DNA of 38,381 nt from a virus. The translations under genes were made by a program, and so were the position numbers. Of the stretch, positions 1 through 36,889 are shown in pieces. The stretch lies in IMG/VR virus record IMGVR_UViG_3300005511_000034, positions 1 through 38,381 of that record, one strand, 5' to 3'. Numbering within the stretch: the first letter of the stretch is position 1; each line of letters opens with the position of its first letter. The notes beneath the pieces were generated by a model. It was given only the letters and a program-made list of their open reading frames with translations, was not told where the DNA came from and searched no databases.

Positions 1-174
1 GATGCCGAGCTTTGCAGCCACCTCCGCCTGGGTGAGACCGAGGTGTTCGCGCCATGCCGTCACCGGTGTCGCGCCTTTCATGATGGTGCGACCCACGACC
101 TCATTCGGAATGTAGTCGGGACCGCGCAGCTTCGCAGCGCAGCGTTCCGGGCTTGCCTCGAGGGGGTCTGCCAT
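1..174 (-). CDS. XRE-family helix-turn-helix protein, N-terminal part (cut by window edge)
   Basis: Reading down from an ATG at 174 gives 58 codons with no stop before the window edge, so the C-terminus is missing. The visible part is a short N-terminal arm followed by the start of a helix-turn-helix: the stretch WREHLGLTQAEVAAKLGI has the typical spacing of XRE/Cro domains that are often antitoxins or autoregulators. A TGGAG ribosome-binding site lies about 10 bases before the ATG. The gene is divergent from the SOS-controlled ORF at 263, and the LexA-like palindrome lies between them. The DNA-binding role is known for the family; whether it is an antitoxin or a phage/host regulator cannot be decided from the fragment. 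Confidence 0.75.
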   Translation of the reverse strand, partial: MADPLEASPERCAAKLRGPDYIPNEVVGRTIMKGATPVTAWREHLGLTQAEVAAKLGI

Positions 175-228: not shown

Positions 229-250
229 ATACTGTATGAATATACAGTAT
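229..250. promoter_or_regulatory. LexA (SOS) operator
   Basis: A palindrome with 9-base arms (ATACTGTAT and ATACAGTAT) around a 4-base centre contains the exact CTGT-N8-ACAG pattern of proteobacterial LexA boxes at 232-247, with an AT-rich core. It ends 12 bases before the ATG at 263, where LexA would block transcription of the 263-574 ORF and the SRAP remnant. It also lies 55 bases upstream of the divergent regulator start at 174. Confidence 0.8.
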
Positions 251-262
251 TGAGGGATATCC

Positions 263-574
263 ATGGGCAACAGCAAACTCGCCAACCAATGTCACATCCG
301 CAACGGTGAGGCGCCCCGCCCTGCCACAGGCACCCCCGAAAACGGCATCCTAGCCCAAGTTCCCGGCAATATCGTGGCCGCGGCTCTGCAGACTCTTCCC
401 CCGCCTACCGCTATTGGCCCAGATACCGCCACCGTGATCTTCGATGCGGAGCATCTCGGCCTTGTGCAGTTCACCATCGAGAAGTGCCGACTCAAGCACG
501 GTCGCCATTCGCACTACTATTGGTCAGCAAGCCGCGCTGAGCCGGTGGAACCAAATTCGAACGGAGAGTCGTGA
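263..574 (+). CDS. small SOS-controlled protein of unknown function
   Basis: The 103-residue product has no domain that I can name. The C-terminal half, with TVIFDAEHLGLVQF followed by a basic and histidine-rich stretch ending HSHYYW, looks like a compact folded unit. A GAGGGA ribosome-binding site sits 5 bases before the ATG, and the LexA box lies directly upstream, so SOS induction is likely. Its TGA stop overlaps the ATG of the following SRAP remnant (TGATG at 572-576), which indicates that the two genes were translated as an operon. A role in DNA-damage response is inference from this context only. Confidence 0.6.
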   Translation: MGNSKLANQCHIRNGEAPRPATGTPENGILAQVPGNIVAAALQTLPPPTAIGPDTATVIFDAEHLGLVQFTIEKCRLKHGRHSHYYWSASRAEPVEPNSNGES

Positions 575-928
575 TGTGCGTGAACTATGCCCCAATCCAG
601 CGGCAGATCCTGAAAGACATCTTCGGCGGGGAGCCGCCGCCCCGCAATGGAAGGCAGAAGCATGGCCCGACTACTTTGCCCCCATCCTGGTTGTCGGAAG
701 CATGATCACGTGAGGCGGTGCTGGGGTCGTTCAGCATGGGTCCGAAGAGCAGCATCCCACCGGGGTCCGGCACTACCCGACGTCGAATGCGCGAATCGAT
801 ACAATCGGGATCTGGGCTCGATTTTCGCCAAGTACTAGAAAGCTGGTCAGCTCTGCCTGATAGCGGCCGTACGCCTCCAGCCAGGGGAAGCTTGCTCCAA
901 AGAACCTAAGCCGCGGCCTTCTCAATAA
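574..928 (+). pseudogene. decayed SRAP/YedK-type gene (SOS response-associated peptidase)
   Basis: The remnant starts MCVNYAP, keeping the catalytic Cys2 and surrounding motif of SRAP (HMCES/YedK) proteins, which crosslink to abasic sites in single-stranded DNA. Further family segments appear in different frames: AWPDYFAPILV (about 660-692), an SFSMGP...IPPG segment (about 728-768), HYPTSNARIDTIG (about 770-810), and KAGQLCLI after an in-frame TAG at 836-838. At least two frameshifts plus that stop break the gene; the last frame ends in TAA at 926-928. Family similarity is convincing to about position 862 and unclear beyond. It is coupled to the upstream SOS ORF. Sequencing error could explain one shift but not all of these lesions together. 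Confidence 0.7.
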
Positions 929-1264: not shown

Positions 1265-2476
1265 GTGTCGATGCCACACCTTCTATCTATATCAGCCCAG
1301 AACTTCCGCAGTCTGGAAAACGTCTCTGTAAAACTGAGAGATCTGAGCGTGCTCGTCGGGCCCAATGGCGCCGGGAAGACCAACCTGCTGAAAGTTATCC
1401 AGTTTCTAGGCGACACTGCACGACTTGACCTAGAGCCTGCCATAGAACGACATGGCGGATTTGATAATTTGCGTTTTCGGGGAAAAAGCTCGGTTAAATC
1501 GATTAAGCTTTCTGTGGAGGCTATTGTTACGCCACACGCGTCGGCGAAGGCTATTGACGAATATACGCTTTCCTTTCGGCAGCAGAAAGCGACCTCGGGC
1601 CTAGCGTGGACCCAACGCATTGAGGAATTCGTATTCAAGAGAACCAAAGGGCGCGGCCGACGGATCTCTGTGCAAGGTGGCGAAGTTCGGATTTCCTCGA
1701 CGGAAAGCCCGACCGGGAGAAACAAACGGGAACTATCTAAACGGGAACTGTCGATGTCCAAGCAGTCCGCTGGCCTTTCGACACTTCAACGTCTCGGAGA
1801 TGATGAGGGCGCTCCTCAAGTTCAGGCTCTAGCATCCCTATTTGAAACTTTCCGCGTATTTGAAGTTGACGTAATCGCAGCAAAAACTCCTTGCGCAGAT
1901 GCTTCGGCGAATATGCTTGCGCAAGATGCAAGCAATCTCGCCGCATTTTTGGGTTACTTGCAGCGCGAACACGATGAAGTCTTTTCTGCTATTGAGTCGG
2001 ACTTGTGTCGGCTAGCTCCCAATATCAGCGGGATATCTGTTGATGTTGAAAAGCTTGGAAGTACCGAGGGAACCGTAGTTTATCTCAGCGAGCACGGACT
2101 GAGTGGTAGAACTCGATTGTTTGACGCATCGTTTGGCACCGTCAGAGCGCTCGCACTATTGGCAATGCTTCATGACCCAAACCCTCCGCGTCTAACTTGT
2201 GTCGAAGAAATAGACCACGGCCTTCACCCTCAAGCGCTAGACGTCATCGTTGAGCGCTTACGATCGGCTTCCGAGAGGACACAACTGTTAGTTGCCACAC
2301 ATTCGCCAGCACTTGTAAATAGACTTCACCCTGACGAGCTAATCGTGTGTCAGCGACATTCCACAAGCGGCGAATCAATAATCCCGGCAATTGATCCAAT
2401 GGATGTCGCGGAGATGGTTGAGGCATCTGGCTTATTGCCAGGTGAGCTGTGGTTCTCAGGAGCTCTAGGCGGTTAA
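1265..2476 (+). CDS. ABC/SMC-type ATPase (AAA15/AAA21, OLD/AriA-like), candidate defence sensor
   Basis: The 403-residue protein has all motifs of the RecF/SMC-like ATPases found in defence systems: Walker A GPNGAGKT at residues 32-39, a signature-like SFGTVR near 289-294, Walker B with CVEEID (E315/D317) near 312-317, and the H-loop ATHSP near 344-348. It lacks a fused TOPRIM domain; a TOPRIM-like protein is encoded 2 bases downstream. That two-gene arrangement recalls PARIS (AriA/AriB) and RloA/RloB pairs. The start is GTG at 1265 or ATG at 1271; neither has a good ribosome-binding site. Family knowledge suggests an oligomeric ATPase that holds or licenses an effector and is triggered by infection; its partner and trigger here are inference. 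Confidence 0.85.
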   Translation: MSMPHLLSISAQNFRSLENVSVKLRDLSVLVGPNGAGKTNLLKVIQFLGDTARLDLEPAIERHGGFDNLRFRGKSSVKSIKLSVEAIVTPHASAKAIDEYTLSFRQQKATSGLAWTQRIEEFVFKRTKGRGRRISVQGGEVRISSTESPTGRNKRELSKRELSMSKQSAGLSTLQRLGDDEGAPQVQALASLFETFRVFEVDVIAAKTPCADASANMLAQDASNLAAFLGYLQREHDEVFSAIESDLCRLAPNISGISVDVEKLGSTEGTVVYLSEHGLSGRTRLFDASFGTVRALALLAMLHDPNPPRLTCVEEIDHGLHPQALDVIVERLRSASERTQLLVATHSPALVNRLHPDELIVCQRHSTSGESIIPAIDPMDVAEMVEASGLLPGELWFSGALGG

Positions 2477-2478
2477 AT

Positions 2479-3183
2479 ATGGCAAAAAAAAGCGATAATA
2501 ATGATGCCAAAAAGGCACGCCAGAAGCAGAAAATCGTTTTAGTCTTTGGTGAAGACGATAATGACCGGCAGGCGGTATCTCATCTGGTCAAAGCGCTTTG
2601 GCCAGACGTGCCAACGATTCGCTGCTTGAGAGCCCCTCTTGTGTTAATTAAGGGCCGAGCTAACGCGGAGCAGCGCAAAAGCGCAACTAATATCTCGAAG
2701 GTTGTAGCGGCTCAAGAGGTGACCCACGCGGTGAGAGCAGTCTTTGCTCATGAAGATTGCGACGCCGTCGAACCAGCACACGTTGTCCTAAGCAAACAGA
2801 TTGAAGACGGCCTTAGCCTGTCCGGCGTACCCAATCCGTGCGCTGTCACTCCTGCTTGGGAGATGGAGGCATGGTGGTTCATGTGGCCCGATCAAGTGAA
2901 GGAGCAATGTCGGCAGTGGAGACGCCCGCAGCGGGATGGAACGAACGTTGGATTAATCCAAAATGCCAAGGAGACTCTTCGGCGTGAGGTACGTTCTACC
3001 GGAAAACAAACCTCGCGCGACTATCATGAGAGCGACGGTATTGACATCGCTAAGCGAATATTAGACCTTGGATTAGTTCGCGATCCTAAGGCACGCAGCG
3101 CATCATTTGACATGTTTGTATCTCGTGTCGATACAATTTCTGGGCGAAGCTCGCAGGCGAAGGAAATCCGCAAAGGCAGTTAA
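2479..3183 (+). CDS. TOPRIM/DUF4276-like protein, probable effector nuclease partner of the ATPase
   Basis: The 234-residue product begins with a lysine-rich tail, then a beta strand ending in GEDDND (E25) as in the first acidic motif of TOPRIM folds. HEDCD follows (D93 and D95, the DxD motif), then AWEMEAWWF (128-134), which resembles the conserved E-A-W segment of DUF4276/RloB-like proteins. TOPRIM proteins of this type act with ABC ATPases as metal-dependent nucleases in OLD, Gabija and PARIS systems. The ATG at 2479 is 2 bases after the ATPase stop, so the two are co-translated; a GTG at 2449 is a less likely start. The exact family is uncertain, as DUF4435/AriB and RloB are related alternatives. 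Confidence 0.65.
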   Translation: MAKKSDNNDAKKARQKQKIVLVFGEDDNDRQAVSHLVKALWPDVPTIRCLRAPLVLIKGRANAEQRKSATNISKVVAAQEVTHAVRAVFAHEDCDAVEPAHVVLSKQIEDGLSLSGVPNPCAVTPAWEMEAWWFMWPDQVKEQCRQWRRPQRDGTNVGLIQNAKETLRREVRSTGKQTSRDYHESDGIDIAKRILDLGLVRDPKARSASFDMFVSRVDTISGRSSQAKEIRKGS

Positions 3184-3262: not shown

Positions 3263-3886
3263 ATGTTTGCGTCGATTCAGCCCAGCGCTACCTCTCAATG
3301 GGAATGCATACCCCGACAATCGAAGGAAGGACCTCGCTCAGTTAAGCAGATCCTAGAAGCGCTTGGTGCTACAGCAGTAACATGGCAACGGCTTGTCCCG
3401 AGCACGGTTGAGATGGCTCGCAGCAACACCCTTTCCTCAAGACATGGACTGGGTGCGTTTCCTGCTCATACCGATTTCGCAACAGCAGCGACCCCTCCTC
3501 AGTATCTTATATTGGTTGCTCCACGCTCTCGAGAAGCGGAAACACTGATCTTCGATCCTTTCGAGCTTCTCCAAGAATTCGGACTTGACCATGTCCAAAG
3601 AAGTCTATTTCTCCTGAAGGGTCGGTATGCGTCTTACTGCCGAATATTGACCATTCGAAATGGGGAATTATTTTTCAGATATAATTCTGCAGTAATGACC
3701 GCCCGAAACGATGAAGCTGTGGCCGTAGCCGCCTATATCGCCAAAATGAAACCAATTCGTCGCGTGGACTGGAAAAACACTCGGATACTGATACTTAATA
3801 ATTGGAGTACTTTCCACGGAAGAAATCAACTACCTGAAGCACAAGACGTTGGACTATATCGCTTTGCGGCCTGGAGAGATCAATGA
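3263..3886 (+). CDS. TauD/TfdA-like Fe(II)/2-oxoglutarate-dependent dioxygenase
   Basis: Counted from the ATG at 3263, the 207-residue protein has the double-stranded beta-helix iron triad: H69-T-D71 in AHTDF, and distal H185 in STFHGR. R200 in GLYRF is suitably placed to bind 2-oxoglutarate. The segment ILILNNWSTFHGR matches the GDvlllDN...HgR pattern of TauD/clavaminate synthase enzymes, which hydroxylate or oxidise small molecules or modified residues. It is shorter than TauD (about 280). I chose 3263 because AAGGAA lies 8 bases upstream; in-frame starts at 3227 and 3107 exist, the latter inside the preceding gene. The stop overlaps the next ATG (ATGA). No metabolic neighbour explains a substrate, so a role in the defence-like cassette is inferred from linkage. 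Confidence 0.75.
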   Translation: MFASIQPSATSQWECIPRQSKEGPRSVKQILEALGATAVTWQRLVPSTVEMARSNTLSSRHGLGAFPAHTDFATAATPPQYLILVAPRSREAETLIFDPFELLQEFGLDHVQRSLFLLKGRYASYCRILTIRNGELFFRYNSAVMTARNDEAVAVAAYIAKMKPIRRVDWKNTRILILNNWSTFHGRNQLPEAQDVGLYRFAAWRDQ

Positions 3887-4845
3887 CTTGGTCAGTTGAA
3901 AATTACTTTTCAAAAGCTCAGGCGTATTGGCAAAGAGCAACGAAAAGCGGTCGGGATAGCGAGGATTTCGTTCTCTATGTTTGTTTCTTCTTGGAGTTCG
4001 TGGCACGCGGAGCGGTCTGTCATGTTAATCCAGCCTTAAACGCGGCTTCAGACCTAGAAAGTCTTCTTTTTTCTTGCGGTCACACTCCACGGACTACTCC
4101 CAAAACGGCCGATTTGCAGGATGTTATCAAACGATTACAGCGACTTGTGACAATTCTCACCGATGCGGAGATTGCCAACGTTCAGACGCTAGTCAGCGCT
4201 CGCAATGGAGAGCTCCATAGCGACAGGGCCGAAATACCGCAACTTTCTGCTCGCCGACTCATGCCCCTTGTGTATTCGTTTGTCGTAAAGATCGCAGATT
4301 TTTCCGGTCAAAATCTTGAATCGCTCCTTGGCAAACAGGATGCTCAGCTCGCCAGACAAACCGCAGAAGCGATGACAAAGGATCGCTCGCGGCGAGTCCA
4401 GGACCTCATTCGCGTTTGCAAAGAGAGATTTTTTTCCCTCCCCGAAGAGGATCAGAGAGAAAAGCGTGGAGCATCTGCAACAACTCTGGTTTCCGCAGTA
4501 CTTGTTAGTGGAAATCACATAATGTTTCTAAAATGCCCGGCATGCGCACAGATCGGTCAGCTGCTCGCAATTCCGGTCGGTAGAAGCGAACCATTTCTTA
4601 AAGCTGGCGAACTCGTACAAGAAGTACGCGTGGCACCCATCCAGTACACATGTAAATGCTGCACATTGGAAATTCGTGGCCTTGACGAATTGATGGCATC
4701 TGGCTTTGAACACGAATATTCATCTATAGATGTCGTGGATCCCGTAGATCACTTCAATATAGATATTAATGAATATATTGATGCAGAAGAGATCGCTAGA
4801 GAGTACCACCGAGATAGATATGAGGATGAATATCAAGACGAATAG
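3883..4845 (+). CDS. HEPN-like protein with C-terminal zinc ribbon, candidate RNase effector
   Basis: The 320-residue protein has an all-helical N-terminal half containing ARNGELHS. R107 and H112 fit the Rx4-6H catalytic motif of HEPN ribonucleases, and N108 follows the arginine as in many active members. The C-terminal third carries a CPAC pair (C218, C221) and a CKCC segment (C257, C260), which can form a four-cysteine zinc ribbon. The tail is strongly acidic. ATGA coupling to the dioxygenase implies one translational unit. HEPN proteins usually cleave RNA as toxins or abortive-infection effectors; that activity here is inference. The coding DNA is AT-rich (one 60-base line at 4741 has 20 G/C), unlike the phage late genes, which suggests transfer. 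Confidence 0.55.
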   Translation: MTWSVENYFSKAQAYWQRATKSGRDSEDFVLYVCFFLEFVARGAVCHVNPALNAASDLESLLFSCGHTPRTTPKTADLQDVIKRLQRLVTILTDAEIANVQTLVSARNGELHSDRAEIPQLSARRLMPLVYSFVVKIADFSGQNLESLLGKQDAQLARQTAEAMTKDRSRRVQDLIRVCKERFFSLPEEDQREKRGASATTLVSAVLVSGNHIMFLKCPACAQIGQLLAIPVGRSEPFLKAGELVQEVRVAPIQYTCKCCTLEIRGLDELMASGFEHEYSSIDVVDPVDHFNIDINEYIDAEEIAREYHRDRYEDEYQDE

Positions 4846-4885: not shown

Positions 4886-5398
4886 CTAACGACCATCAAT
4901 CAGAGCATCGTAGCTTCTCTCGCATGCCAGACCAGCTACCTTGAGTCTGTCGGCATATAAAGCCAAGATTCCCGAAGCTTTGTCAGACCGCCTGAGCACG
5001 TCAACAAGCACATCGAGGGGATCTGCACTTGGCTCGTCCGGGCCACCGCCGGCAATACTGGAATCCTTGGCGGATCGGGCGGAGGCAAGTAGCTGGTCGA
5101 CACGCTGCCGCAACCGGTCAGCAGCATCGCCAGCAGCGCGGGCATCGGCCCGCGCTGTCTCCGCATCGTGTTTCGCAACATTGGCAATCTCCATTTGTGC
5201 AGCCGTACGGCGCTGCTCCTCGGCTCGTGCGTATTGAACGGCCTTTGCTTTTTCAGTCACAGCGATCAGGGCCGCTCGTGTGCGCTTCGACTCGTACCTG
5301 GCAGCATCAGCCAAAGACTGATGCCAGCGGCCGGTGGCGTACGCAATCAGCCCACAACTCAGCAACGCAAGCCATAACCGTGAATTCAGAAGATTCAT
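4886..5398 (-). CDS. Rz-like i-spanin (DUF2514-type)
   Basis: The 170-residue protein has an N-terminal membrane anchor (LWLALLSCGLIAYATG) followed by a long Ala/Glu/Arg-rich coiled coil, the usual design of inner-membrane spanins that fuse inner and outer membranes in the last step of lysis. The start at 5398 is set by GGAGGT just upstream and by ATGA overlap with the endolysin stop at 5395. The C-terminal half encloses the Rz1 gene in another frame. The stop faces the HEPN gene stop across 40 bases with no clear terminator hairpin. Confidence 0.85.
   Translation of the reverse strand: MNLLNSRLWLALLSCGLIAYATGRWHQSLADAARYESKRTRAALIAVTEKAKAVQYARAEEQRRTAAQMEIANVAKHDAETARADARAAGDAADRLRQRVDQLLASARSAKDSSIAGGGPDEPSADPLDVLVDVLRRSDKASGILALYADRLKVAGLACERSYDALIDGR
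4936..5187 (-). CDS. Rz1-like o-spanin lipoprotein, embedded in Rz
   Basis: This frame lies wholly inside the Rz gene, the classic nested Rz/Rz1 layout. It encodes a short lipoprotein: a basic start, a hydrophobic stretch and the lipobox LLTGC with the lipidated Cys at codon 26 (DNA 5112-5110), then a proline-rich segment (LPPPDPPRIPVLP) typical of Rz1. The product would sit in the outer membrane and pair with Rz across the periplasm. The true start may be one of the later methionines (5181, 5166 or 5145), since the 15 residues before the signal peptide are longer than usual. Confidence 0.75.
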   Translation of the reverse strand: MPMLRNTMRRQRGPMPALLAMLLTGCGSVSTSYLPPPDPPRIPVLPAVARTSQVQIPSMCLLTCSGGLTKLRESWLYMPTDSR

Positions 5399-5928
5399 TG
5401 CACCTCCATGCATCTACGATGGCGCTCGAGCTGTCGCGTCCAAACACCGAAGCAGCGCGTGTTTGGCTTGCCTTCCACCCGTGTGCTGCAGTCGTAGTCA
5501 CCGAGGAAACGCCAGTTCTTGAGAGCGTCGCATGCACCTAGATAGTCACCGGCCAGTAACCACGTGCGCGGCGACTTCGGCTTCCGCCAATTGCCGATAC
5601 CGAACTGCCCCACAAAATTCAGGTAAAGGTCGTACTCTTCCTGAAACAGCTCCACACCATCGATCGAGGCCCGAAACCGCTGCTCGTCCTTCGACATCAA
5701 ATTACGCGCCAGCTGCTCAGCGCGCTGTCGCGTGATCGGCGGATCGGTCAGCTTGACCGGCTGACCATCTTCGTAGCGCGTGGACCCGTATCCTATGGTC
5801 GGCCTGTCCCCCTTGATCGGGATCATCGGAGCGGGCGCGAAACCTTCCGATTTCATCCACGCACCGATTCCGGCGAGGCTCACGGATAGAAAGGCAACTG
5901 CGACCCGCTTACGGTTGCTGATCGACAT
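5395..5928 (-). CDS. GH24-type lysozyme with signal-anchor (SAR) N-terminus, endolysin
   Basis: From the ATG at 5928 the 177-residue protein starts with basic residues and a weakly hydrophobic, Ala/Gly/Ser-rich segment (about 9-24), as in SAR endolysins exported by Sec and held at the membrane. The catalytic GH24 pattern follows: E28 in SEGF, D41 in KGDRPTIGYGST, and T50. It hydrolyses peptidoglycan glycan strands. AAGGGG lies before the chosen start; a longer upstream frame exists but has no membrane logic. It overlaps the holin by 20 bases and is coupled to Rz by ATGA. Release from the membrane after holin triggering is inferred from the SAR-type N-terminus. Confidence 0.88.
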   Translation of the reverse strand: MSISNRKRVAVAFLSVSLAGIGAWMKSEGFAPAPMIPIKGDRPTIGYGSTRYEDGQPVKLTDPPITRQRAEQLARNLMSKDEQRFRASIDGVELFQEEYDLYLNFVGQFGIGNWRKPKSPRTWLLAGDYLGACDALKNWRFLGDYDCSTRVEGKPNTRCFGVWTRQLERHRRCMEVQ

Positions 5929-6169
5929 TGCATTGCCCCTTGATCGCGGCGATACGCGCTGCGCTCTCTGCAGTTTCCCGTCGATCGCGCCGAATCTGGA
6001 AAAAGATGTTCGCCGCCAGGCCAAGCACTGCGACGAGCACGCCGACCAGGCCTACCCAGTTGATCTGCGCAAGCCAGCCGACGGCGCCAGTTAGCGCGCC
6101 AGCAACCGTCGTCTTGTTGGCCAGCGAGGTGCCGACCACTTCAATCGTAAGTTCGGTTCTATCCGCCAT
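5909..6169 (-). CDS. phage holin, two transmembrane segments
   Basis: The 86-residue protein has two hydrophobic segments (about residues 20-35 and 38-58) followed by a charged tail with IRRDRRE, the layout of class II holins. Its position directly before the SAR endolysin and the Rz/Rz1 pair supports a role in timing lysis by depolarising or perforating the inner membrane. It overlaps the endolysin start by 20 bases. With a SAR endolysin, a small-hole pinholin would suffice, but this cannot be told from sequence. Confidence 0.75.
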   Translation of the reverse strand: MADRTELTIEVVGTSLANKTTVAGALTGAVGWLAQINWVGLVGVLVAVLGLAANIFFQIRRDRRETAESAARIAAIKGQCNVDQQP

Positions 6170-6271: not shown

Positions 6272-9200
6272 TTAGAGATCCGCGCGCACTCTCGCCACGT
6301 CTTCACGCAACCGCTGGCGCATTGCCTTTGGCGCCGTGTCCGCAATGCGCTGGTCTTTCGATTTCGCCATCTCACGCACGCGCCGGAGCACGTCGGGCAT
6401 GCGCACGACCATCCGCTGATCAGGATTTTTCCTGTTCCAAACCGTAACGGCGTCGCGTGCCCTCTGCACTTTCGCCTGGTCCTTCTCGAAAATGCCTTGT
6501 GCCCATAGCGCGCGGATCTCCTGCGCCCGCAGGTTATAGAACGCCTTGGCCTGCTGGTTCAGTCCGTTGGCTTCCTGGATCGTGGCGACGCTGGACGGCT
6601 GGAAGCCAACGGCTTTGAGCGCCGCTTCCAGGGCGTTGGTGTCGAGCACCTTGTAGCCTTTGGTGTCGCGGTACATGCCCGTTGCCGCCATATCCGCGCC
6701 CTTGGCCAGGTTGCGAACGGCTGTCGGCGCTGCTTCTAGCAGTCCACCACCGATATCGCCGCCCGTCACCTTCCGCGCGCCGGACAGCAGGCGGCGGGCA
6801 AAGTCGCCGGCGGGGCCCAGGATTTCGAGGACGTCACGGGTGTGGTCGTTGCTCTCCTTCAACAAGCCCGTGCCGGGAATCAGGTTGCCCATACCAAGCC
6901 GACCGGACACATCCAGCGGCATGCCCGGCAGACCGGTGATTCCCTTTTCGATGAAGGACGCGATGTCGCGCCCAAACACGCTTTCCAGAAACTCCTGCTT
7001 GGCCTTCTTCGCCGAAAAGTTGTAGCCCGCAATTTGCGCCATGGCGTCGATCAGGTCGTCTGCATCTTCGGCGAACGGAAGGCCGCCAGCACCACCGAGC
7101 AGCATCAGGGTCGCCAGCATCAGCAGCGCAGCCTTGCGCCCCTCCTTCCGCTCGCGTGAACCCTCTTGACCCTGGCTCCACAGGCGGCTCATCAACTCGA
7201 CGTATGCAATGGAATAAGTCTTGAAAGTGAAAACTATTCCGCCCACGGCGCCGCGGCCCCACTGCATTTTCGAAGCCTTTGAATTGCCAGTGACGAACAC
7301 CGCCCCGCGACGTCGCGCGATCCATGTTCCCGCCTTCGTTTCTGGGCACCACACACCGTCATCCACATAGACGGTCTTGCGCTTAAGACTTCCGACTTGG
7401 GAGCGTTGACTATTCACGTGAAGGTAGAGATGGGGAACGCTTGATGGCCTCTCATCCCGTCTGGGATAGAACGTCGCATTCTGCCCCGTCAGTACGGCCA
7501 TCGCCTGCAGAATATCGAGGTTTTGGTCGGCCTTTTGTGCCACAAGCCATCCACCTTCTTTGAGCAAATGCCCGTCGCCCTTCGCAAAGGCATCGATCAT
7601 TCCCCGCATCTCCGCGAACGGCATTTTCTCAACCATCGCCCAGGTCAGCAGCTTCTCAGGCATGAGTTCACGAACGCGATCAGAAAGAGGCTTTCGCAGC
7701 GTGAAAATTGCCATCTCGCCATTCTTCACGACAAACTTGCGATAGTGGCCACCCAAGCGGGTTAGCAGTTCATCAAGCTCCTTCACGTAGACGGGATTGT
7801 GAGAAATTGACTGCGTCAGTCGAACATTTGTCCGAGTTTTGCAGTTTCTGAAGCGAGCATAGTGCCCTTCAGCGGCCACCCATCCCAGCAGTGCAGCCAG
7901 ATCAACACCGATCCATGGGGCGCGGACGATCGGTGCCGAAGGCGCACGCAACAATTGGTGACCCGGACGTAGGTCAATAGCTCTCCGCTTCAGCACCTTA
8001 CTTCGCTTCTTGAGTCGGCTGTCAAAGTGTTGAACCAAACAGTGGTGGCCATCGGTGACCATCATGTTGAATTTGCGCGACCCCGAGAATTCATTGATTG
8101 CATGCCGGCCGGGGAATCGATGTACGTCTTCCAGTACTGTGTGTATGGCACGACCACTCTCATCTACACCAACGACAGTGTCTCCCAGACGCAAATCATC
8201 GCGCATCTTCCACCCACCAACAGTTAGGCACTCGGTCTCGGAATCAACGCAATACACAAACTGTGTTTCCGTGACCGCCCGGCGCGCGAACTCGGCGGGA
8301 GCGGCCATACCCTGGCCCTTGGCCACGCGGTACGCGGCGATGAACGTCACTCGTCGGTTCACCTGTTCGGCGGCGCCGAAGAGCTTTCCCCACGCGACGG
8401 ACAGGCGCGTAAGCGAGTTGGCAGCCATCGCACGAGCGTCCCCGATCCGCGTGCCGTCGCCAGCGCGCAATGATCCGCTGCCACGCGCCTGCGCCATCAG
8501 TTGGTGGACCTCCTGAGGGCTGACCGTTCCATCGTCTTCGGCATCGCGCAGCGCGCGTGCCAGGTCAGCTTCGTACTGGAAGCCCTTCGTGGCCATCTGC
8601 CGGGCTGCTCGACCGATCTCGGTGGCCGCCTTGCGTGCACCTCCGAACTGGCTGAGCCACGGGAATGTGACCGCGGCAGGTTGAGTCATGTTGACCAGCG
8701 CCGAGGCCACCGAGCCACCCAGGTACTGAGCAAACAGCAGACCGCGGATGACCTGCGCTTCCTCCTGCGGATTTTTGATGTAGTCGGCCAGTCGTACTGC
8801 GGCGTCCTTCAGTTCGCCCTGCTCTTTCGGGATCGCGTCTACTGCTTCTGACAGATCCCCCATATGCAGGCCCGCCGCAGTCTGGCGACTGTTGCTGTAG
8901 ATGAAAGACGCCAGCACGCGGCCCACATCCTCGCTGTAGCCGGCAATGCCCTTGCGGTGAATCAGCCGCCGCACGGCGCTGCGATTGGTCTTCGTCAGGC
9001 GCAGATATTCCTGGAAGGCCTGATCTCGCTCACTGTCTCCTTGCGAATCTAAGCTCAGCGCATTCCCGAAGATCTCCAGCGTCTCCGGCGTGACGCCGGC
9101 GAACAGCTTGTAGCTCTCTTCCGACAGCGTGCCCTGGTTGACGGCGGCAGCCGGGAAGGCGCCGCGCATCTGCCCAGCCATCTGGTTTGCCTCGCGCCGC

Positions 9201-12200
9201 GTCTCAAACAGGCCGAAGTACTGGCGCTCGCCGGCCTGATCGACCACGTCCACCGTGTACTTGCCGAACCTGGACAACGGTGCATAACCCTCTGCCTGCA
9301 GTTTGGTTACCTTCTCTGCCCGGTCCATCACCCCATGCGCGACTTCCATTAGGTGCTTGGTGCGGTCAGGGCGGGCGTCCGCCATTTTGGCCAAGTGGTC
9401 ACGCAGGAGCGTGGCTGCCGCGCGGACATCAGGTGCATCCATGACCAGGTCTCGCAGTTCCTTTGCATCGTCCCCCGCATAGTGCAGCATGTCTGCCCGA
9501 GCCATGGTGTCAAGACTGCGATCAGTCGCGGCGCGGAATTCCTTGTACAACGCGACCTGCGCGTCGTTCAGCTTGAACTGGCTACGCAGTTCGGCGTCCG
9601 TCCAGACGATGCCGGCCTTGAGCATCTGCGACTCGAAACGGCTGTCGATCAGCCGCGCAAACTGTTCCTCCGAATGGCCACGCCACGCCCGCAACATCCC
9701 CTCGGGGATCTTGTTTTGTTCCAGCAGGATGGCAGCCTTGTCCTCGGTGGTGATGCTTGCCGCGGCCTCGGCCAGGTCGGTAACGCGCGCGGGCTTGCCT
9801 GACGTGTTGCGCGTCCACAGCAGAGTGCCTTCGAAGATCGGCGCGGCCACTGCCTTGTTGTCTGCGGCGCTGACCGGCGACTTGGCGATATCGCCCCATG
9901 TGTCCAGCTTCGGCAGCAGCTTCGGAGCCATATCGGCGGCATCGCTCGCATAGTGCGAGACGTCGTCAATGAAGCCTTGCGCCGATTCGAACACCGGCCG
10001 GAAGGCAGGCGACCGCTGCGCGAGGTTGTACATCGTGCCGATCGTCTTGTGCCACCAGGAGAGGCCGCCGGGCGCGCTGAACGTCTTGTTCAGTTCCTTG
10101 GTCGCCCGGCCAGCCACGGCACGCAGCCCGGAGCGGCTGAACTGGATTCCATCGTCGCTCGCACCAGTTGCGGCGAGATCGGTGGATAGGAGCCGGCGGA
10201 GTACGTTCGCAACCTCACCCGAGGTGACTTTGCTATGTCGCTCAGAGCCGCCTGCGTCATCGGCGCCCGGACTCTGGGCCTTCGAAATCGTCGAATCCGG
10301 CAGGTTTTCGGGTACGCTACCGCTTCCCCCTGAGCCATATGAGCCGGAAGGCTGCTCTGCCGAAGAGGCATCAGCACCGGAAACTTGGTGGTTCGGGGGA
10401 CTATCAGTTGTGTCGTCGTTGCTACTTGCTTCCCGCAAAGCCTGGAGTACACTACGTGTGCCTCCTGCAGTGACCTTACCGTTTCGCTCGGGTACTCCGG
10501 TACCGGCCTCGGAATCACGGGACTGCAGGAGGCTTTCTTTTGTGACGACGCTGTGCAGATACATACGCCCCTGCTCACCAGGGTGCCGGCGGACGAGCAC
10601 AGTCACGATGTCATCTACTCCAGTGATGCGCACCGGCGCCGAGACATAGAAGCTATCGAAGTCTTCTACCGGGCCGGAAAGCACCACCACTCCACGCTCC
10701 AGTACATCCTTCACCACCGCAAAGGCTTCGGCTTTGAACGGGTTCATGCGATGCGCCATGGAGTCGCGTACGGAGCGCTCGTTCAGGGTCACTTCGCCCA
10801 ACTCGGGGTTCATTGCCTTGCCGCCAAACTGGTTGACAAAGAGATCGATGGCCCATGCCCGAAGCGCCGGATAGCCCTGTGGGGCCCGCCTCTCGGCCAC
10901 GACTGCAACAGGCTGGCCCTGCAACACCCGCGCCTTGCGGATCTCGTTTTCGTTCCGGCTTGCCGCAACCCCCTGACCCCGGACGTCGCCACGGGTTGCC
11001 CGCTCCATGCCGGCCATCGCGTATCCCACCAGATCATCCACGCTGATCGGCCCTACGCCCAGCCCGTTGCGCAGCATCCACTGACGAACCATGGCTAGAA
11101 AACTGCGAAGGAGATCCCCGACACGTCGACCGACCGCTGAGTCAACCCATTCCAAGAACCGGCTGTCTACAAAGGCAAAGCCCTGGCTGCGGCCCTCAAT
11201 CACCGCCTGCTCGACGACGTAGGCTGCGGCTTCTCGGGGATTCCCTTCCTCTCCGGCGGCCGCCATTCGGCTGGCCGCGCGATCGAGGAACTCCCGCAGT
11301 GAGCGGTCCCGGATACTGGCACGCTTGGTCAGTAGGTCAGCGGCGCGCTTGTCGAACTGCTGACGTTGCTGACCATGAGTCATCTCGTGCAGAAGAACTG
11401 CCGGGGCCGTGACCGAATCGAGGTTTGGCCCAACCAAGAAGGTCAGACCAGACTTTGCATCGTAGAAGCCGTTGATCAGACCGCCGTCTTCGAATAGCTG
11501 GACGGCCTTGGTCAGCGAGGTTCCCGTTTTGGTGGCGAAGACACGAGCAATTTGCTTTGGATCATTGCTGTCAATCATCACCGCGCCGCCACGCGTGCCC
11601 TTTCGGCCGCGCGCCAGCATCGTTCGAACTGCCTTGGTCAACTGCGGGAACTGCAGCTCGAAGGCTCGCAGAAGCTTCTGCTCGTCCATCAGCGCATTAC
11701 CGGAGATGTTCTGCGGATACTCGCCATTCACGACGTCACGCCCATTTAGGGTGATAAGCACCCGGCTCTCCTGGACGTCAGCCGATTCTTCTACAGCGGT
11801 CGTGCTACTCGGTTGCGAGCGTGCCCTCGGCCCGGCCACAGAAAATTGCGGGATATCGTCGCCCGATTGACTTTTCGACGGTGCGTCGTTATCGGGCAGT
11901 TTTCCATCGGCCGGCATTTCCACCTCCCCTACCGGCCCCACCTTCAGATCCCGTGCGCTGGGGGCGGTGGAGTGCGTGCGATCGTGCCTATCCGGCATGT
12001 CCCGCCAGGTTCCACCATCCTTCTCTACGGCACGTACCGTGACGCTCCACCCGCCATCAGGATCGGTCGGGGTGTAGCTCACCACGCGGTCAAAGCCGCT
12101 GTAGCTCTTCACCACATTGCCGGGCGTGAAGTACTCCGCTCGTGCCAGGGCATCGGCTTTGGCCTTCTTCGCCAGCACACCGCGTGGCGGCTTTGCCTTC

Positions 12201-15040
12201 TGCGCGGTGCCGGCCCGCTCCGGCTTGGCCGGAGTGTCGGCCATGTCATCGGTCACCGGTGCGCGCGTGTCGCCGTTCTTCAGCCACGACTTGAACTCGT
12301 CCATGTCCATGGCCCGAACTGGCCCGACCTTCCAGCCGGCATCGAAGTTGGAGCGATAGGCCGCAACTGCGTCGGACTCTTGATCGAAAGCAAGCATGAC
12401 CTTGTGTTCATCGAAGCCACCGGACTGTTGGTCGAGCTGGTTCACAACGAACACATGACGCGATTCAGGATTGGGGCCGATATAGGCGTCGACCTGATCG
12501 CCGTCCGCACCTTCCGTACGCTTGATGTACCCGTAGTGGTCGCTCATGGTGTGGCGCCACTCGGTGCCGTCCGGCCGCATGCCCGTGCGATCGGAGCCGC
12601 GGGGGTTTTCCACCGTGATATCCAGACCCTGGACACGAACGTGGCCCTTGGCGTAGTTGCCCGCTTCCTTCTGGGCCTCGGTGGGTTCCGGTCGATCGTT
12701 CTGCGGGCTCGTGGCCGCCTGATGTGCAGCGGCGTCGATTTGCACCGACGCGGCGCCCTGAGGCGCCAAGGGCTTAAGCACTGGGGGCCGAACCGTTGGC
12801 TGGGTGCCAAACAGGTATTCCTCGGCTGAGTCTTTGTCCGCCCGCTGCGGCTTCGTAAGGTTGGCCTCGAACTGCCGGGCATTGAAATCGTCCCCACGCG
12901 AGCGCGCTTCGTCCAATGCGTTCTGCATCAGCCACTGGTCCGCAGCCCTGATGGTCCTCGACGCCTTGCGGTTCGAGTCGAGGATCACCTTTGGGAATGG
13001 CGTGGTCTGCCGACCCGAACTCGTCAGCACCATCTCGCCGGACGCGAGCGCTTCGCCGACCTTGCCTTGACGCGGCACCGCGGCCTTGTTGGCGGACTGC
13101 TGAGCAGCCTTGGCACGACGCACCCTGGCAATGGCGTCCTTCAGATTGGAAGGCTTCGATTCAACCGGGGGAACAACTTCAGGCGTGGCCTCGGTAGGTG
13201 CTGATTGCGGTCGCGCCGCAGCAGCTTCAGGTTGCGGCGCTGCTTGCGGTTGCTGCTGAGATTCGAGCGCATGTGCTGCCTCCAGATTCGGTGCGCTTGG
13301 CGTTGGGATGCTGTCTGCCGCTGGCACGGCCGGTACCGGCTGGGTCTCGTCGGCCGAGCTCGATGGCATCTGCTGCGGGGGTCGCTCTGCATTGGGTTGC
13401 AGCTTCGCCAGCTCCGATTGCACGCGGTCGCGCTCGGCGATCAGGCGCATGTCCCAGCCGTTGGCTCGTGCGGTCTGCTGAATGAAGTGCAAGCGGCCCC
13501 GTAGCTCAGTGGCCGGGTCGCTGGCCAACAGGCTTCCTTGCGCCGCGTCGATCTTCCCCGGTTCCTGATCGATCTCCTTGCCCTTCCCGCCGTTGTCCTG
13601 CTGCGGAACCGCTTCAGCGGCCTCCTGCAGTGCGGCTTTGTTCGCGATGTCTTGGGTCGCCCCGCTGTCGACGGCGAGCGCCGCCGCAGTGGACATCGGA
13701 CCGGCCTCAGGGTCGAGACCCATCTGCTCGGAGGCAGTCGGTGCCCTCTCGATCGGCGTCACATCAAGAATTTCGCCGCGGCGAATGCGGTCCAGGCGGT
13801 CCGCTCGAGCCTGCGCGGCAGCCTGAGTCGCGTCGTTGAGGTCGGCGGTCGTGCGTACGACACCATCGGCATCGGCCTCGTAGACGGGTGCGGGGAGCTG
13901 CGGCGGAAGTGGTTCGGTAACCGTCGGGGCCGCCGGCGTGGGAGTCACGTCGGTGAATTCCCCTCGACGAGCTCGATCCAGCGCGGCGTTCCTGTCCTCG
14001 GTAGTCCGCACCTCGCCGTCGGCGCCCACGTCGTAGACAGGCGAGGGCAGCAAGGGAACATGCCGCTGCTGCAGCTCCTGCTGCGGAGGTGCCAATGTCG
14101 GCGCCGCCTCAGCTTCGAGACTTCTACCGTGAATCGGCCCGGCGATGCCGCCCATCAAGCCACCGGTCAGCACGCCCATTACTGCCTGATCGCTAAGACC
14201 TTCGGTCCACGGCTTGTCCAGTGCCTGGTTCTGCAATACCTGCTCTGACAGCGCCTGCGGCAGTTCCTCGAGGAAGCCTTCGGAGATCGCTCCCTCCAGC
14301 GCCTTGCGAGGCAGACTCTTGGAGGCCGCCCGCGCAGACGCGGCAGCGGCGGACGCGCCACCGGTAGCCAGCAGGGTGTCGATATCGCCAATGCCCAGAC
14401 GCTGAGCGATCTTGCCGCCCGCTGCACCGAATAGCGTTGTTGCCGCACCTGAGGCGGCGGCCAACGCCGCCTGCTTGTCCGTCAGCAAGCCGTCGTCAGT
14501 CTCCTGACGGATCTGGGCGGCTGCCGAACCTGCTCCAACGATGCCCTCGCCCACTGCTCCGGCCACTGTGCCGCTGACCTTCGGAATCATGCTTACGGCG
14601 CGGCCGGCCACACCACCCGCACCCATTAGCGGTAGCGACTGGCCGACCGCGTTGGTAATGAGCGAGGGATTCGAGAGCGCGACCTTAGTTTTGTCCATCA
14701 CGCCATCGGCGTTCTGGAAGTCCTGCTGCTGTTGCTTGGCTGCGTCCGTCATCAGGGAGCCCAGGAACTCCCGAGTCTGCCTGGGTCGGAATCCAATGGC
14801 ACCGTCCTGGTTCTCCAGGAACTTGCCGACTTGGCCGCCGGTGGCAATGTCGGCCAGGCCGACCGCCGCCTCAGGAACACCCACGACACCCTGCGCTACT
14901 GAGAGCCCGAAGTCGCGGACGTGGCCCAGCACGCCTTTTTCCTCCGGAACGGTGGTGCCGCCGAATTCTTCCCAAGGCTTCGGCGCAGCGCCGCTGGACG
15001 GCTGCTGCGCATAGTCTTCCCACGGTTTTTGATCGGACAT
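6272..15040 (-). CDS. giant polyvalent virion/effector protein (InPase, zincin peptidase, MuF-C and LPD38-like regions), interrupted by an intein
   Basis: This 2922-residue protein (about 2599 without the intein) is of the large phage polyvalent type delivered with DNA into the host. The start at 15040 is set by a TGATG overlap with the upstream stop. Visible parts: KPWEDY/KPWEEF repeats at the N-terminus; Gly/Ala-rich, membrane-like helices (about 120-300); a duplicated PVYxxxADGxVRTT unit (about 330-430); an inorganic-pyrophosphatase-like region with DAYIGPNPES (about 790-925); a zincin peptidase with HEMTH (H1218, H1222); a MuF-C/BECR-type region with NPELGEVTL (about 1390-1500), a family that includes toxin nucleases; and an LPD38-like C-terminal region around TQFVY/SKASKMQWGRG, split by the intein at 2264-2586. 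P1 DarB and Bcep22 gp75 are functional analogues known for ejection or anti-restriction. I see no lytic transglycosylase motif. Domain names are from memory of motifs and should be treated as probable. Confidence 0.85.
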   Translation of the reverse strand: MSDQKPWEDYAQQPSSGAAPKPWEEFGGTTVPEEKGVLGHVRDFGLSVAQGVVGVPEAAVGLADIATGGQVGKFLENQDGAIGFRPRQTREFLGSLMTDAAKQQQQDFQNADGVMDKTKVALSNPSLITNAVGQSLPLMGAGGVAGRAVSMIPKVSGTVAGAVGEGIVGAGSAAAQIRQETDDGLLTDKQAALAAASGAATTLFGAAGGKIAQRLGIGDIDTLLATGGASAAAASARAASKSLPRKALEGAISEGFLEELPQALSEQVLQNQALDKPWTEGLSDQAVMGVLTGGLMGGIAGPIHGRSLEAEAAPTLAPPQQELQQRHVPLLPSPVYDVGADGEVRTTEDRNAALDRARRGEFTDVTPTPAAPTVTEPLPPQLPAPVYEADADGVVRTTADLNDATQAAAQARADRLDRIRRGEILDVTPIERAPTASEQMGLDPEAGPMSTAAALAVDSGATQDIANKAALQEAAEAVPQQDNGGKGKEIDQEPGKIDAAQGSLLASDPATELRGRLHFIQQTARANGWDMRLIAERDRVQSELAKLQPNAERPPQQMPSSSADETQPVPAVPAADSIPTPSAPNLEAAHALESQQQPQAAPQPEAAAARPQSAPTEATPEVVPPVESKPSNLKDAIARVRRAKAAQQSANKAAVPRQGKVGEALASGEMVLTSSGRQTTPFPKVILDSNRKASRTIRAADQWLMQNALDEARSRGDDFNARQFEANLTKPQRADKDSAEEYLFGTQPTVRPPVLKPLAPQGAASVQIDAAAHQAATSPQNDRPEPTEAQKEAGNYAKGHVRVQGLDITVENPRGSDRTGMRPDGTEWRHTMSDHYGYIKRTEGADGDQVDAYIGPNPESRHVFVVNQLDQQSGGFDEHKVMLAFDQESDAVAAYRSNFDAGWKVGPVRAMDMDEFKSWLKNGDTRAPVTDDMADTPAKPERAGTAQKAKPPRGVLAKKAKADALARAEYFTPGNVVKSYSGFDRVVSYTPTDPDGGWSVTVRAVEKDGGTWRDMPDRHDRTHSTAPSARDLKVGPVGEVEMPADGKLPDNDAPSKSQSGDDIPQFSVAGPRARSQPSSTTAVEESADVQESRVLITLNGRDVVNGEYPQNISGNALMDEQKLLRAFELQFPQLTKAVRTMLARGRKGTRGGAVMIDSNDPKQIARVFATKTGTSLTKAVQLFEDGGLINGFYDAKSGLTFLVGPNLDSVTAPAVLLHEMTHGQQRQQFDKRAADLLTKRASIRDRSLREFLDRAASRMAAAGEEGNPREAAAYVVEQAVIEGRSQGFAFVDSRFLEWVDSAVGRRVGDLLRSFLAMVRQWMLRNGLGVGPISVDDLVGYAMAGMERATRGDVRGQGVAASRNENEIRKARVLQGQPVAVVAERRAPQGYPALRAWAIDLFVNQFGGKAMNPELGEVTLNERSVRDSMAHRMNPFKAEAFAVVKDVLERGVVVLSGPVEDFDSFYVSAPVRITGVDDIVTVLVRRHPGEQGRMYLHSVVTKESLLQSRDSEAGTGVPERNGKVTAGGTRSVLQALREASSNDDTTDSPPNHQVSGADASSAEQPSGSYGSGGSGSVPENLPDSTISKAQSPGADDAGGSERHSKVTSGEVANVLRRLLSTDLAATGASDDGIQFSRSGLRAVAGRATKELNKTFSAPGGLSWWHKTIGTMYNLAQRSPAFRPVFESAQGFIDDVSHYASDAADMAPKLLPKLDTWGDIAKSPVSAADNKAVAAPIFEGTLLWTRNTSGKPARVTDLAEAAASITTEDKAAILLEQNKIPEGMLRAWRGHSEEQFARLIDSRFESQMLKAGIVWTDAELRSQFKLNDAQVALYKEFRAATDRSLDTMARADMLHYAGDDAKELRDLVMDAPDVRAAATLLRDHLAKMADARPDRTKHLMEVAHGVMDRAEKVTKLQAEGYAPLSRFGKYTVDVVDQAGERQYFGLFETRREANQMAGQMRGAFPAAAVNQGTLSEESYKLFAGVTPETLEIFGNALSLDSQGDSERDQAFQEYLRLTKTNRSAVRRLIHRKGIAGYSEDVGRVLASFIYSNSRQTAAGLHMGDLSEAVDAIPKEQGELKDAAVRLADYIKNPQEEAQVIRGLLFAQYLGGSVASALVNMTQPAAVTFPWLSQFGGARKAATEIGRAARQMATKGFQYEADLARALRDAEDDGTVSPQEVHQLMAQARGSGSLRAGDGTRIGDARAMAANSLTRLSVAWGKLFGAAEQVNRRVTFIAAYRVAKGQGMAAPAEFARRAVTETQFVYCVDSETECLTVGGWKMRDDLRLGDTVVGVDESGRAIHTVLEDVHRFPGRHAINEFSGSRKFNMMVTDGHHCLVQHFDSRLKKRSKVLKRRAIDLRPGHQLLRAPSAPIVRAPWIGVDLAALLGWVAAEGHYARFRNCKTRTNVRLTQSISHNPVYVKELDELLTRLGGHYRKFVVKNGEMAIFTLRKPLSDRVRELMPEKLLTWAMVEKMPFAEMRGMIDAFAKGDGHLLKEGGWLVAQKADQNLDILQAMAVLTGQNATFYPRRDERPSSVPHLYLHVNSQRSQVGSLKRKTVYVDDGVWCPETKAGTWIARRRGAVFVTGNSKASKMQWGRGAVGGIVFTFKTYSIAYVELMSRLWSQGQEGSRERKEGRKAALLMLATLMLLGGAGGLPFAEDADDLIDAMAQIAGYNFSAKKAKQEFLESVFGRDIASFIEKGITGLPGMPLDVSGRLGMGNLIPGTGLLKESNDHTRDVLEILGPAGDFARRLLSGARKVTGGDIGGGLLEAAPTAVRNLAKGADMAATGMYRDTKGYKVLDTNALEAALKAVGFQPSSVATIQEANGLNQQAKAFYNLRAQEIRALWAQGIFEKDQAKVQRARDAVTVWNRKNPDQRMVVRMPDVLRRVREMAKSKDQRIADTAPKAMRQRLREDVARVRADL
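7283..8251 (-). mobile_element. in-frame intein with LAGLIDADG homing endonuclease
   Basis: Residues 2264-2586 of the polyvalent protein form a 323-residue intein. It begins at Cys1 (CVDSETECLTVGGW, block A) and has block B with T66-D-G-H69. Two LAGLIDADG-like helices follow, LLGWVAAEG (121-129) and MIDAFAKGDGH (218-228), giving acidic E128 and D226. It ends with block F/G VWCPETKAGTW ... VFVTGN before Ser+1. The penultimate residue is Gly rather than the usual His. Removing it restores TQFVY-SKASKM, the continuous LPD38-like motif. Base composition differs: sample 60-base lines at 7741, 7801 and 8041 contain 32, 27 and 30 G/C, against 39 at 8341 in the flanking extein. Splicing is inferred from complete motifs. 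Confidence 0.93.
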
Positions 15041-34587: not shown

Positions 34588-34792
34588 GAGTAGGCTCCAT
34601 GAATGGTTGGAGCGCACTCTTGCGCGCTTCCCCGGCGGCTTCCCGCCTTGCCTTCGGGGTAACGATCGGGGTGAGCTCGTCGGCGACGATGACGAGCCGC
34701 GCGAGCTGGCCAGATTTCTTGTCCAGCCGCACGGTGGTGGTGCCGATCGTCAGCACGTCACCGATCCTCATGTCGACGGACAGCCTTGTCAT
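34568..34792 (-). CDS. small protein with CsrA-like pattern (74 residues)
   Basis: The stretch MRIGDVLTIGTTTVRLDKKSGQLARLVI followed by ADELTPI recalls the beta-strand order of CsrA (GESIMIG ... VRIGIDAPKEVSV), an RNA-binding regulator, but the similarity is only suggestive. The rest (KARREAAGEARKSALQPFM) is helical. ATGA overlap couples it to the upstream connector-type gene. If CsrA-like it could tune late mRNA translation; otherwise it is a small structural protein. Low certainty on function. Confidence 0.5.
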   Translation of the reverse strand: MTRLSVDMRIGDVLTIGTTTVRLDKKSGQLARLVIVADELTPIVTPKARREAAGEARKSALQPFMEPTHGEYSI

Positions 34793-35466
34793 AGCCAGAA
34801 CGCCTCGACGTGGTGTGGCACATCCTCGCGCGTCACGCGACGCAGATCCGAATCGGGCCGCAAGCCGAAGTAGGCCGTGAATGCCGCCTCCGCGATGTCA
34901 GCCCTGCGCGCGTCGAACGATTCCATGTCCGGAATGCTGAAACCGCGATGCAGCGGCCATTGCACCAGGTGCGAGTGGTGCGCCTCCCCGATCTCGGGCT
35001 CGTCTTCGTCCTTCCTTTGGAAGTCCATATGTGCCAGTGGCAACCGGTAACCCTCCAGGATCAGCTTGCCTGACCCTGACGGCTTCGGGACCAGCCGCAA
35101 GCCTTTGTCCGACTGAACGGCGAACAGCGGCGACCCGCGACGCGCCCGCCAGTCGCTCTGATTGGCATCCAGCCACTCGGTCGACACCAGACGGATCGTG
35201 CCCGCCTGGCAAGCACCATCGTCGAGGAAGCCAACGTAGGTCAATTCGAACAGCGCCTGATGCAGCGGATAGGCTGAGCGCTCCGCCTCCACCGCAATCT
35301 CACAGACGGCGGCGTCCTCGCTTTCGTGAATGAGGCGACCACGCAGCGCGGCTTCCGCCACCGCGTCGTTCAGCCACGCAGTGATGTCCGCGTCTGACCA
35401 GAAGTACGGAGCGACGTTGTCGTTCCCGTCGACACGTACCCGGCGGATTAACTCGGCCAGCTTCAT
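34789..35466 (-). CDS. head-tail connector/adaptor-like protein (225 residues)
   Basis: The helical N-terminus (MKLAELIRRVRVDGND ... FWSDADITAWLNDAVAEAALRGR) followed by a beta-rich middle (RLVPKPSGSGKLILEGYRLPL) and the acidic/His segment DEDEPEIGEAHH is the usual layout of phage head-tail adaptors of podoviruses (DUF6682-type), which sit between portal and tail. ATGA overlaps at both ends tie it to its neighbours. Family assignment is from the overall pattern; a decisive domain match was not run. Confidence 0.65.
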   Translation of the reverse strand: MKLAELIRRVRVDGNDNVAPYFWSDADITAWLNDAVAEAALRGRLIHESEDAAVCEIAVEAERSAYPLHQALFELTYVGFLDDGACQAGTIRLVSTEWLDANQSDWRARRGSPLFAVQSDKGLRLVPKPSGSGKLILEGYRLPLAHMDFQRKDEDEPEIGEAHHSHLVQWPLHRGFSIPDMESFDARRADIAEAAFTAYFGLRPDSDLRRVTREDVPHHVEAFWL

Positions 35467-36323: not shown

Positions 36324-36349
36324 TGGAATGTCCTACTCATGCGTGACGA

Positions 36350-36371
36350 GCGGGCGGCGCAGACCGCCCGC
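36350..36371 (-). terminator. GC-rich hairpin between virion genes
   Basis: GCGGGCGG and CCGCCCGC form a perfect 8-base stem with a 6-base loop in the 67-base gap between the capsid-accessory and RyR genes. No T run follows on the reverse strand, so partial termination or mRNA processing that sets gene dosage is more likely than full termination. Confidence 0.35.
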
Positions 36372-36390
36372 CTCGGTGGTGTGCCGTCAG

Positions 36391-36867: not shown

Positions 36868-36889
36868 ATGGCCTCCTTTCTGGCGGCGA

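Follow-up and report, generated by a model that had tools for sequence, protein, structure and literature searches.

SRAP proteins (DUF159; YedK, YoqW, HMCES) cross-link to abasic sites in DNA. The SOS operons described for this family in the main text of PMC3765255 contain SRAP, ATP-dependent ligase, and zinc-ribbon-like proteins, all of which are found again at the loci of an unnamed family, here called MGNS, to which an intact 103-aa gene of the virus sequence analysed here belongs, judging from sequence. The neighbourhoods published in that main text centre on DinB, UmuCD, ImuAB-DnaE2, or Ku; neither Cupriavidus nor Ralstonia occurs in it, its figures and additional files being outside this scope, and the zinc ribbon that it describes could be the one that lies beside MGNS. 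A second set of related systems consists of prophage loci controlled by the host: Tum of phage 186, AntC of N15, and the dinI-antirepressor operons of the Gifsy prophages are, in the available text of PMC3121763, small prophage genes under host LexA, as is predicted for MGNS. However, no Pfam similarity was found for MGNS (although an antirepressor may have no Pfam model), its recognised partners are DNA-repair proteins, and it is also present in many genomes of one genus. Finally, the accessible part of PMC3323433 describes hypA, a hypothetical gene that is predicted to be LexA-regulated and is confined to beta-proteobacteria, in a set that includes R. eutropha, R. metallidurans, and C. taiwanensis. 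By description only, hypA could correspond to MGNS or to its zinc-ribbon partner.

The window, meaning the entire stretch of DNA analysed, is the whole IMG/VR virus record IMGVR_UViG_3300005511_000034, a linear fragment of 38,381 bases, whose relevant features are these:

1-174, minus strand: divergent gene cut by the contig end, matching HTH_3 weakly at E 8e-4, which falls short of the curated cut-off
230-249: LexA/SOS box TACTGTATGAATATACAGTA, 18/20 to consensus, starting 33 bp 5' of the ATG at 263
263-574, plus strand: intact MGNS-family gene, starting with ATG and encoding 103 aa (MGNSKLA...HGRHSHYYWSASRAEPV)
574-901, plus strand: SRAP (YedK/HMCES-type) pseudogene that retains residues 1 to ~111, spread over several frames, and lacks the C-terminal half
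1265-2476, plus strand: HEC-01A-like ATPase (E 9e-139)
2476-3183, plus strand: HEC-01B-like protein (E 7e-30)
4886-5413, minus strand: Rz-like spanin, oriented towards the SOS unit, an arrangement shared with relatives
5395-6024, minus strand: endolysin, likewise oriented towards the SOS unit here and in relatives
6272-15055, minus strand: 2927-aa protein with InPase and LPD3 domains

An earlier note on this DNA had proposed a near-ideal LexA box ahead of a coupled two-gene unit whose small first gene is intact, and each of these points is borne out. When the window is scored against TACTGTATATATATACAGTA, which we take to be the LexA consensus, the second-best LexA-like place reaches 12/20, and no site of at least 16/20 arose when the window was randomised 50 times with a first-order Markov model. 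The CTGT-N8-ACAG palindrome within 230-249 is intact and lies 5' of the 263-574 gene; LexA would be expected to bind there, with induction upon DNA damage. The ATG of the 263-574 open reading frame is preceded by GAGGGA, and its TGA (572-574) shares one base with the ATG of the SRAP remnant at 574, a stop/start overlap that accounts for the coupling. On its other side, the box is bordered by the divergent 1-174 gene, which may share the intergenic control region with the SOS unit.

The second gene of the unit is a remnant of SRAP, beginning with MCVNYAP and thus retaining the Met-Cys start of the family. When 26 SRAP sequences of the retrieved loci, among them one identical pair, were compared with positions 551-1300, matches appeared in three frames, with a best E of 9e-19, that span 574 to ~765, 645 (in some cases 585) to 842, and up to 871; the matched part of the queries was residues 1 to ~100 of 213-239. 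The Pfam SRAP profile has no match anywhere in the window. A frameshift-aware alignment of the window DNA was then made to the intact SRAP proteins of loci L198 and L214, with shuffled proteins as the control. Against L198, residues 1-111 of 216 are covered by window positions 574-901, with 74 of 103 aligned codons identical, four frameshift steps, one in-frame stop, and a score of 297, compared with 50-58 for five shuffled proteins. Against L214, the alignment covers residues 1-117 of 221 (window 574-916) and 59 of 109 aligned codons are identical, with four frameshift steps, no stop, and a score of 219 compared with 55-82 for the shuffled proteins. The alignments stop at ~901-916, and nothing further 3' aligns with either reference; the C-terminal half is missing. 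Poor assembly is disfavoured as the cause of these lesions because long open frames are present elsewhere in the contig. Set against what the accessible text of PMC9436759 gives for a working SRAP, the frameshifts and the end of alignment at residue 111 (L198) or 117 (L214) mark the window copy as a pseudogene rather than a working family member. The earlier note had described an SRAP gene broken by at least two frameshifts and a stop. Identity and decay are upheld, and the lesion proves larger than noted; the frameshifts, about four in number, are firm since they appear with both references, whereas the stop depends on the reference, appearing with L198 only.

By comparison, the protein encoded by the first gene has no match of meaningful E-value in Pfam, NCBIfam, PHROGs, or PADLOC, and a search of 37 MGNS members against Pfam at E 0.1 gave a single marginal match, that of a zinc ribbon to one member (0.008). 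In phage records, no match was found to DNA positions 1-1270 or to the 103-aa protein; this protein used as a single query confirmed 0 of 14 stretches of viral contigs, and in a plasmid search it returned four Cupriavidus records. A first profile, built from the window open reading frame and two Cupriavidus megaplasmid relatives, was applied to the genome collection, where 13 of 72 pattern matches proved to be MGNS loci; the records of 12 are titled Cupriavidus and that of one Ralstonia. With profile A2, MGNS was found in 45 of 60 genomes of Cupriavidus (the genus of L006) and in 39 of 349 genomes of the family, all 39 being within the Cupriavidus genus list. At the level of the order, profile A3 matched 10 of 399 genomes, including three known genus members, and at the level of the class it matched 1 of 369, which is the already known G003. 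Because the family, order, and class searches scored only about 12-14 candidates in each genome, the absence of MGNS outside Cupriavidus is soft. The seven order genomes outside the known genus members gave MGNS matches with E 5e-27 to 4e-4. Among their eight loci, several lack an MGNS start or are split between frames; the box scores 17/20 in L115 and 14/20 just upstream in L116, L117, and L119, and no LexA box (12/20 or less) lies upstream of MGNS in L114, L118, L120, and L121.

Profile A3 also yielded 29 confirmed viral MGNS loci in IMG/VR among 69 pattern matches, relatives that are detected only by profile and were missed by the single-protein query. The viral and genome counts are not independent because the two locus sets partly overlap: the MGNS proteins of L199 and L004, of L200 and L005, and of L204 and L043 are identical, and L199 and L200 may represent the very positions of L004 and L005. 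In each of these last four loci, another LexA-like box, scoring 16/20, follows 402 bp beyond the start of MGNS. In L046, L048, L049, L054, L056, and L057, a similar open reading frame (MRLADFILRDM... or close) lies 3' of a zinc-ribbon-MGNS pair, which suggests that the pair is a fixed chromosomal copy there. Among the titles and abstract openings listed by searches of the open literature, supplementary files being outside that scope, none describes an MGNS-like family.

The link between MGNS and LexA is not peculiar to the window. From 79 loci with a match, those whose start falls at profile position 1, with a score of at least 90 and enough upstream sequence, were retained; after removal of duplicates, this left 50 distinct intact-start loci including the window, a few of which have damaged 3' ends. 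A LexA box of 16-20/20 is present within 450 bp upstream in 47 of the 50, many relatives having it at -32 to -38. A score of 16/20 was reached by 0 of 10,000 Markov-resampled upstream regions and, elsewhere in these loci, by 8 of 393 stretches of 450 bp. The three loci without such a box are L043, L104, and L101, and in L043 and L104, 17/20 boxes are located 611 and 605 bp upstream, ahead of the FLE partner gene. Among the viral loci, four pairs of which are near-identical, a box of at least 16/20 lies within 650 bp in 19 of 25, the other four of the 29 having too little upstream sequence. Viral L218, L220, and L221 have sites of 14-15/20 at -327 to -330, and in L207, L217, and L223 the best upstream site scores 10-13/20.

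A limited set of genes recurs near MGNS, mostly on the same strand: a zinc-ribbon protein (ahead of it), the 84-aa FLE protein, SRAP (PF02586), DUF2188 (PF09954), and an ATP-dependent DNA ligase (PF01068, E 1e-25). In the interval from -1.3 to +3.5 kb, SRAP is present in 19 of 92 rows and ligase in 12 of 92, duplicates being included and the flanks being unequal, so that the tie of MGNS to repair through its neighbours is indirect. SRAP, ligase, DUF2188, and the two small proteins are minority partners of MGNS. In L197 and L198, which are identical over the 600 bp compared, the order is LexA box, MGNS, SRAP, DUF2188, ligase, with SRAP starting 308 bp after the MGNS start, and by sequence this is the window order in intact form. 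A downstream SRAP spans its model nearly in full in L090, L091, L092, L197/L198, L210, L214, L217, and L224. It is incomplete in the window, L006, L030/L093/L215 (which have similar matches), L097, L100, and L212, where the window and L006 were read as sequence and some of the others may reflect frame or locus-end cuts. An upstream SRAP, partial or split, is found in L219, L222, and L223. SRAP thus appears as an optional and often incomplete partner, with MGNS as the most constant member, and it seems that a locus can lose SRAP and still keep MGNS.

The earlier note had also raised the idea that the small gene may keep a function of its own, and the existence of the family, the conserved LexA box, and the low dN/dS in relatives all speak for it. 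Among nine zinc-ribbon-MGNS loci, the median dN/dS is 0.07 (36 pairs, range 0.034-0.165), and among five L041-type loci it is 0.126 (10 pairs, 0.071-0.188). The viral pairs give 0.08 (L210/L213), 0.09 (L202/L208), 0.10 (L199/L200), 0.24 (L203/L204), 0.30 (L201/L204), 0.34 (L202/L205, at very low divergence), and 0.38 (L210/L209), so that dN/dS is below 1 in every MGNS comparison reported. Selection on the window copy itself is poorly measured because dS to L196, the nearest relative seen, is saturated (dN 0.28, dS 2.1). The predicted structure of MGNS is confident at about residues 30-95 (block-mean pLDDT 93-96 for 31-90) and consists of a helix and a three-stranded antiparallel sheet, the N-terminus being poorly predicted. 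Fold searches with this model gave no significant match, with Foldseek in PDB at E 1.0 or worse. The highest-ranking structure, that of the BrnT toxin, reaches Z 3.9 over 59 residues with rmsd 3.5, and a chain from a ParDE system appears at Z 2.7; by the tool's own note, a Z below 8 may reflect no more than a shared arrangement. The missing fold match is no evidence of a new fold. Designed armadillo proteins, matched over 31-32 positions in a PDB profile search (best E 6e-8), were judged to be low-complexity Ala/Leu matches and rejected.

An Rz- or endolysin-like gene lies downstream of MGNS, on the opposite strand, in 24 of the 29 viral loci, the loci without a facing lysis gene being L199, L200, L216, L218, and L223. 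Furthermore, the order in L198, L203, and L213 is dusA, integrase, LexA box, MGNS, lysis, and since MGNS is flanked by integrase and lysis genes in these three, it lies inside the prophage. The integrase and Dus of L198 were confirmed by Pfam and the lysis genes of the window by profile; the L203 integrase and the Rz/endolysin seeds other than the window's own were chosen by eye from open reading frame lists. The window, whose contig ends at base 1, has no integrase of the L198/L203 type, and the position of its SOS unit beside an integrase would follow by analogy with these relatives. Positions 34789-38182 align over 99% with Pseudomonas phage 8P at 71.5% identity and with H66 at ~68.5% over 70%, and the window has the arrangement of F116/H66-like phages, in which tail and lysis genes come after a homologous head region, 34789-38182 being the part compared as DNA. 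As in the window, the lysis genes of 8P come after the structural genes. In 8P, however, the integrase adjoins the lysis genes, whereas at that place the window carries, on the opposite strand, ~4.8 kb of cargo to which the SOS unit belongs. Given the lysis-facing order, the integrase order of relatives, and the 8P match, the unit is best read as phage cargo. The earlier suggestion of a prophage or chromosome edge is thus retained in its first half; the chromosome-edge reading was dropped in view of the lysis-facing genes and the three relatives between integrase and lysis genes. Among 73 viral loci fetched by the window Rz gene, only two (L144, L153) carry MGNS within the retrieved DNA, and consequently this cargo is optional even in this phage type. 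In 48 of the 54 genome-derived loci, the 1.5-4 kb flanks show no match to integrase, dusA, Rz, or endolysin, the search having used few seeds. In L040, integrase and dusA matches lie on either side of the zinc-ribbon-MGNS pair, perhaps as the remnant of a dusA prophage that retained the SOS cassette.

Other genes of the window also have the look of cargo. The HEC-01A/HEC-01B-like genes at 1265-3183, outside the SOS unit, are a candidate anti-phage defence pair, and the protein encoded by 3883-4845 has no confirmed viral relative. Two plus-strand genes amid minus-strand phage genes are probably further cargo: 17212-18354 matches a model of a type IV restriction enzyme at E 3e-14, and 19335-20726 matches that of PDC-S36 at E 7e-46. 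Within the 2927-aa protein, 7283-8251 (minus strand), which starts with CVDSETECL and ends with VFVTGN before Ser, is an insertion that we take to be intein-like; it has no NCBIfam match.

The best reading of these findings is a LexA-controlled cassette that is carried by some Burkholderiales temperate phages and is also resident in Cupriavidus genomes. For the window, we consider it reasonably probable that the unit is a LexA-controlled DNA-damage cassette, cargo at the integrase/lysis end of an F116/H66-related temperate phage, and that MGNS helps repair. In this model, LexA would repress the cassette promoter in the lysogen, and DNA damage, by inactivating LexA, would turn the cassette on together with the host SOS genes. 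The MGNS protein would be the constant product, perhaps a small DNA- or partner-binding repair factor, to which fuller cassettes would add SRAP, ATP-dependent DNA ligase, DUF2188, and small partners; in the present phage, SRAP would have decayed by frameshifts and C-terminal loss, with MGNS alone staying whole. The cassette would most likely aid the survival of phage and host DNA under damage, during induction or stress. What can be read from the DNA itself is the LexA box, the small gene in its whole form, what is left of SRAP, the family and its LexA-box link, and the position and partners of relatives; from these we infer LexA binding and induction, the place next to an integrase in this truncated contig, and the repair role of MGNS.

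MGNS could instead be a LexA-controlled antirepressor or induction helper that inactivates the phage repressor upon SOS, like Tum, AntC, or GfoA/GftA of the Gifsy prophages. It is a small prophage gene with a LexA box, present in 29 viral loci, and the known cases, in the available text of PMC3121763, are likewise small and LexA-controlled, being operonic with dinI in the Gifsy prophages. However, MGNS occurs in 45 of 60 Cupriavidus genomes, and the partners recognised are SRAP and ligase, although repressors were outside the search. Damage tolerance is favoured because these partners are repair proteins and because 48 of 54 genome loci lack phage matches (within 1.5-4 kb flanks and with few seeds), so that an antirepressor seems unlikely. 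Still less probable is an SOS-induced inhibitor of growth or division that holds the cell while phage or repair works, an effect comparable with those of SulA, Fil, and TisB, which are SOS-induced inhibitors. The small protein behind a LexA box and the weak BrnT (Z 3.9) and ParDE-chain (Z 2.7) rows would fit it, but Z values below 8 may reflect no more than a common arrangement, and there is no match to a toxin family, though the zinc-ribbon partner recurs. The alternative to which we give least credence is that the unit is no more than a host SRAP locus in ordinary decay, included because the prophage border was mis-called, with the small open reading frame as a meaningless leader. SRAP is indeed a pseudogene, and the record is linear and ends inside the neighbouring gene; however, the small open reading frame has a family of its own, a conserved box, and dN/dS well below 1 in relatives, three of which lie between integrase and lysis genes.

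The damage cassette, as preferred here, admits a broader and more tentative extension. MGNS may be the founder of a new SOS effector family, a small protein whose target would be damaged DNA or the RecA/SRAP/ligase machinery. It may have spread in Burkholderiales as LexA-driven cargo with a preferred integrase-lysis slot in different temperate phages, and Cupriavidus may have adopted it as a resident SOS gene. Lists of SOS regulons usually start from core genes; in the present case, a LexA box points to a small family for which none of the four libraries has a model. MGNS gives the impression of a genuine but unstudied component of the bacterial response to DNA damage, and it offers a simple, testable gene with which to ask what phages gain from damage-response functions that are controlled by the host.
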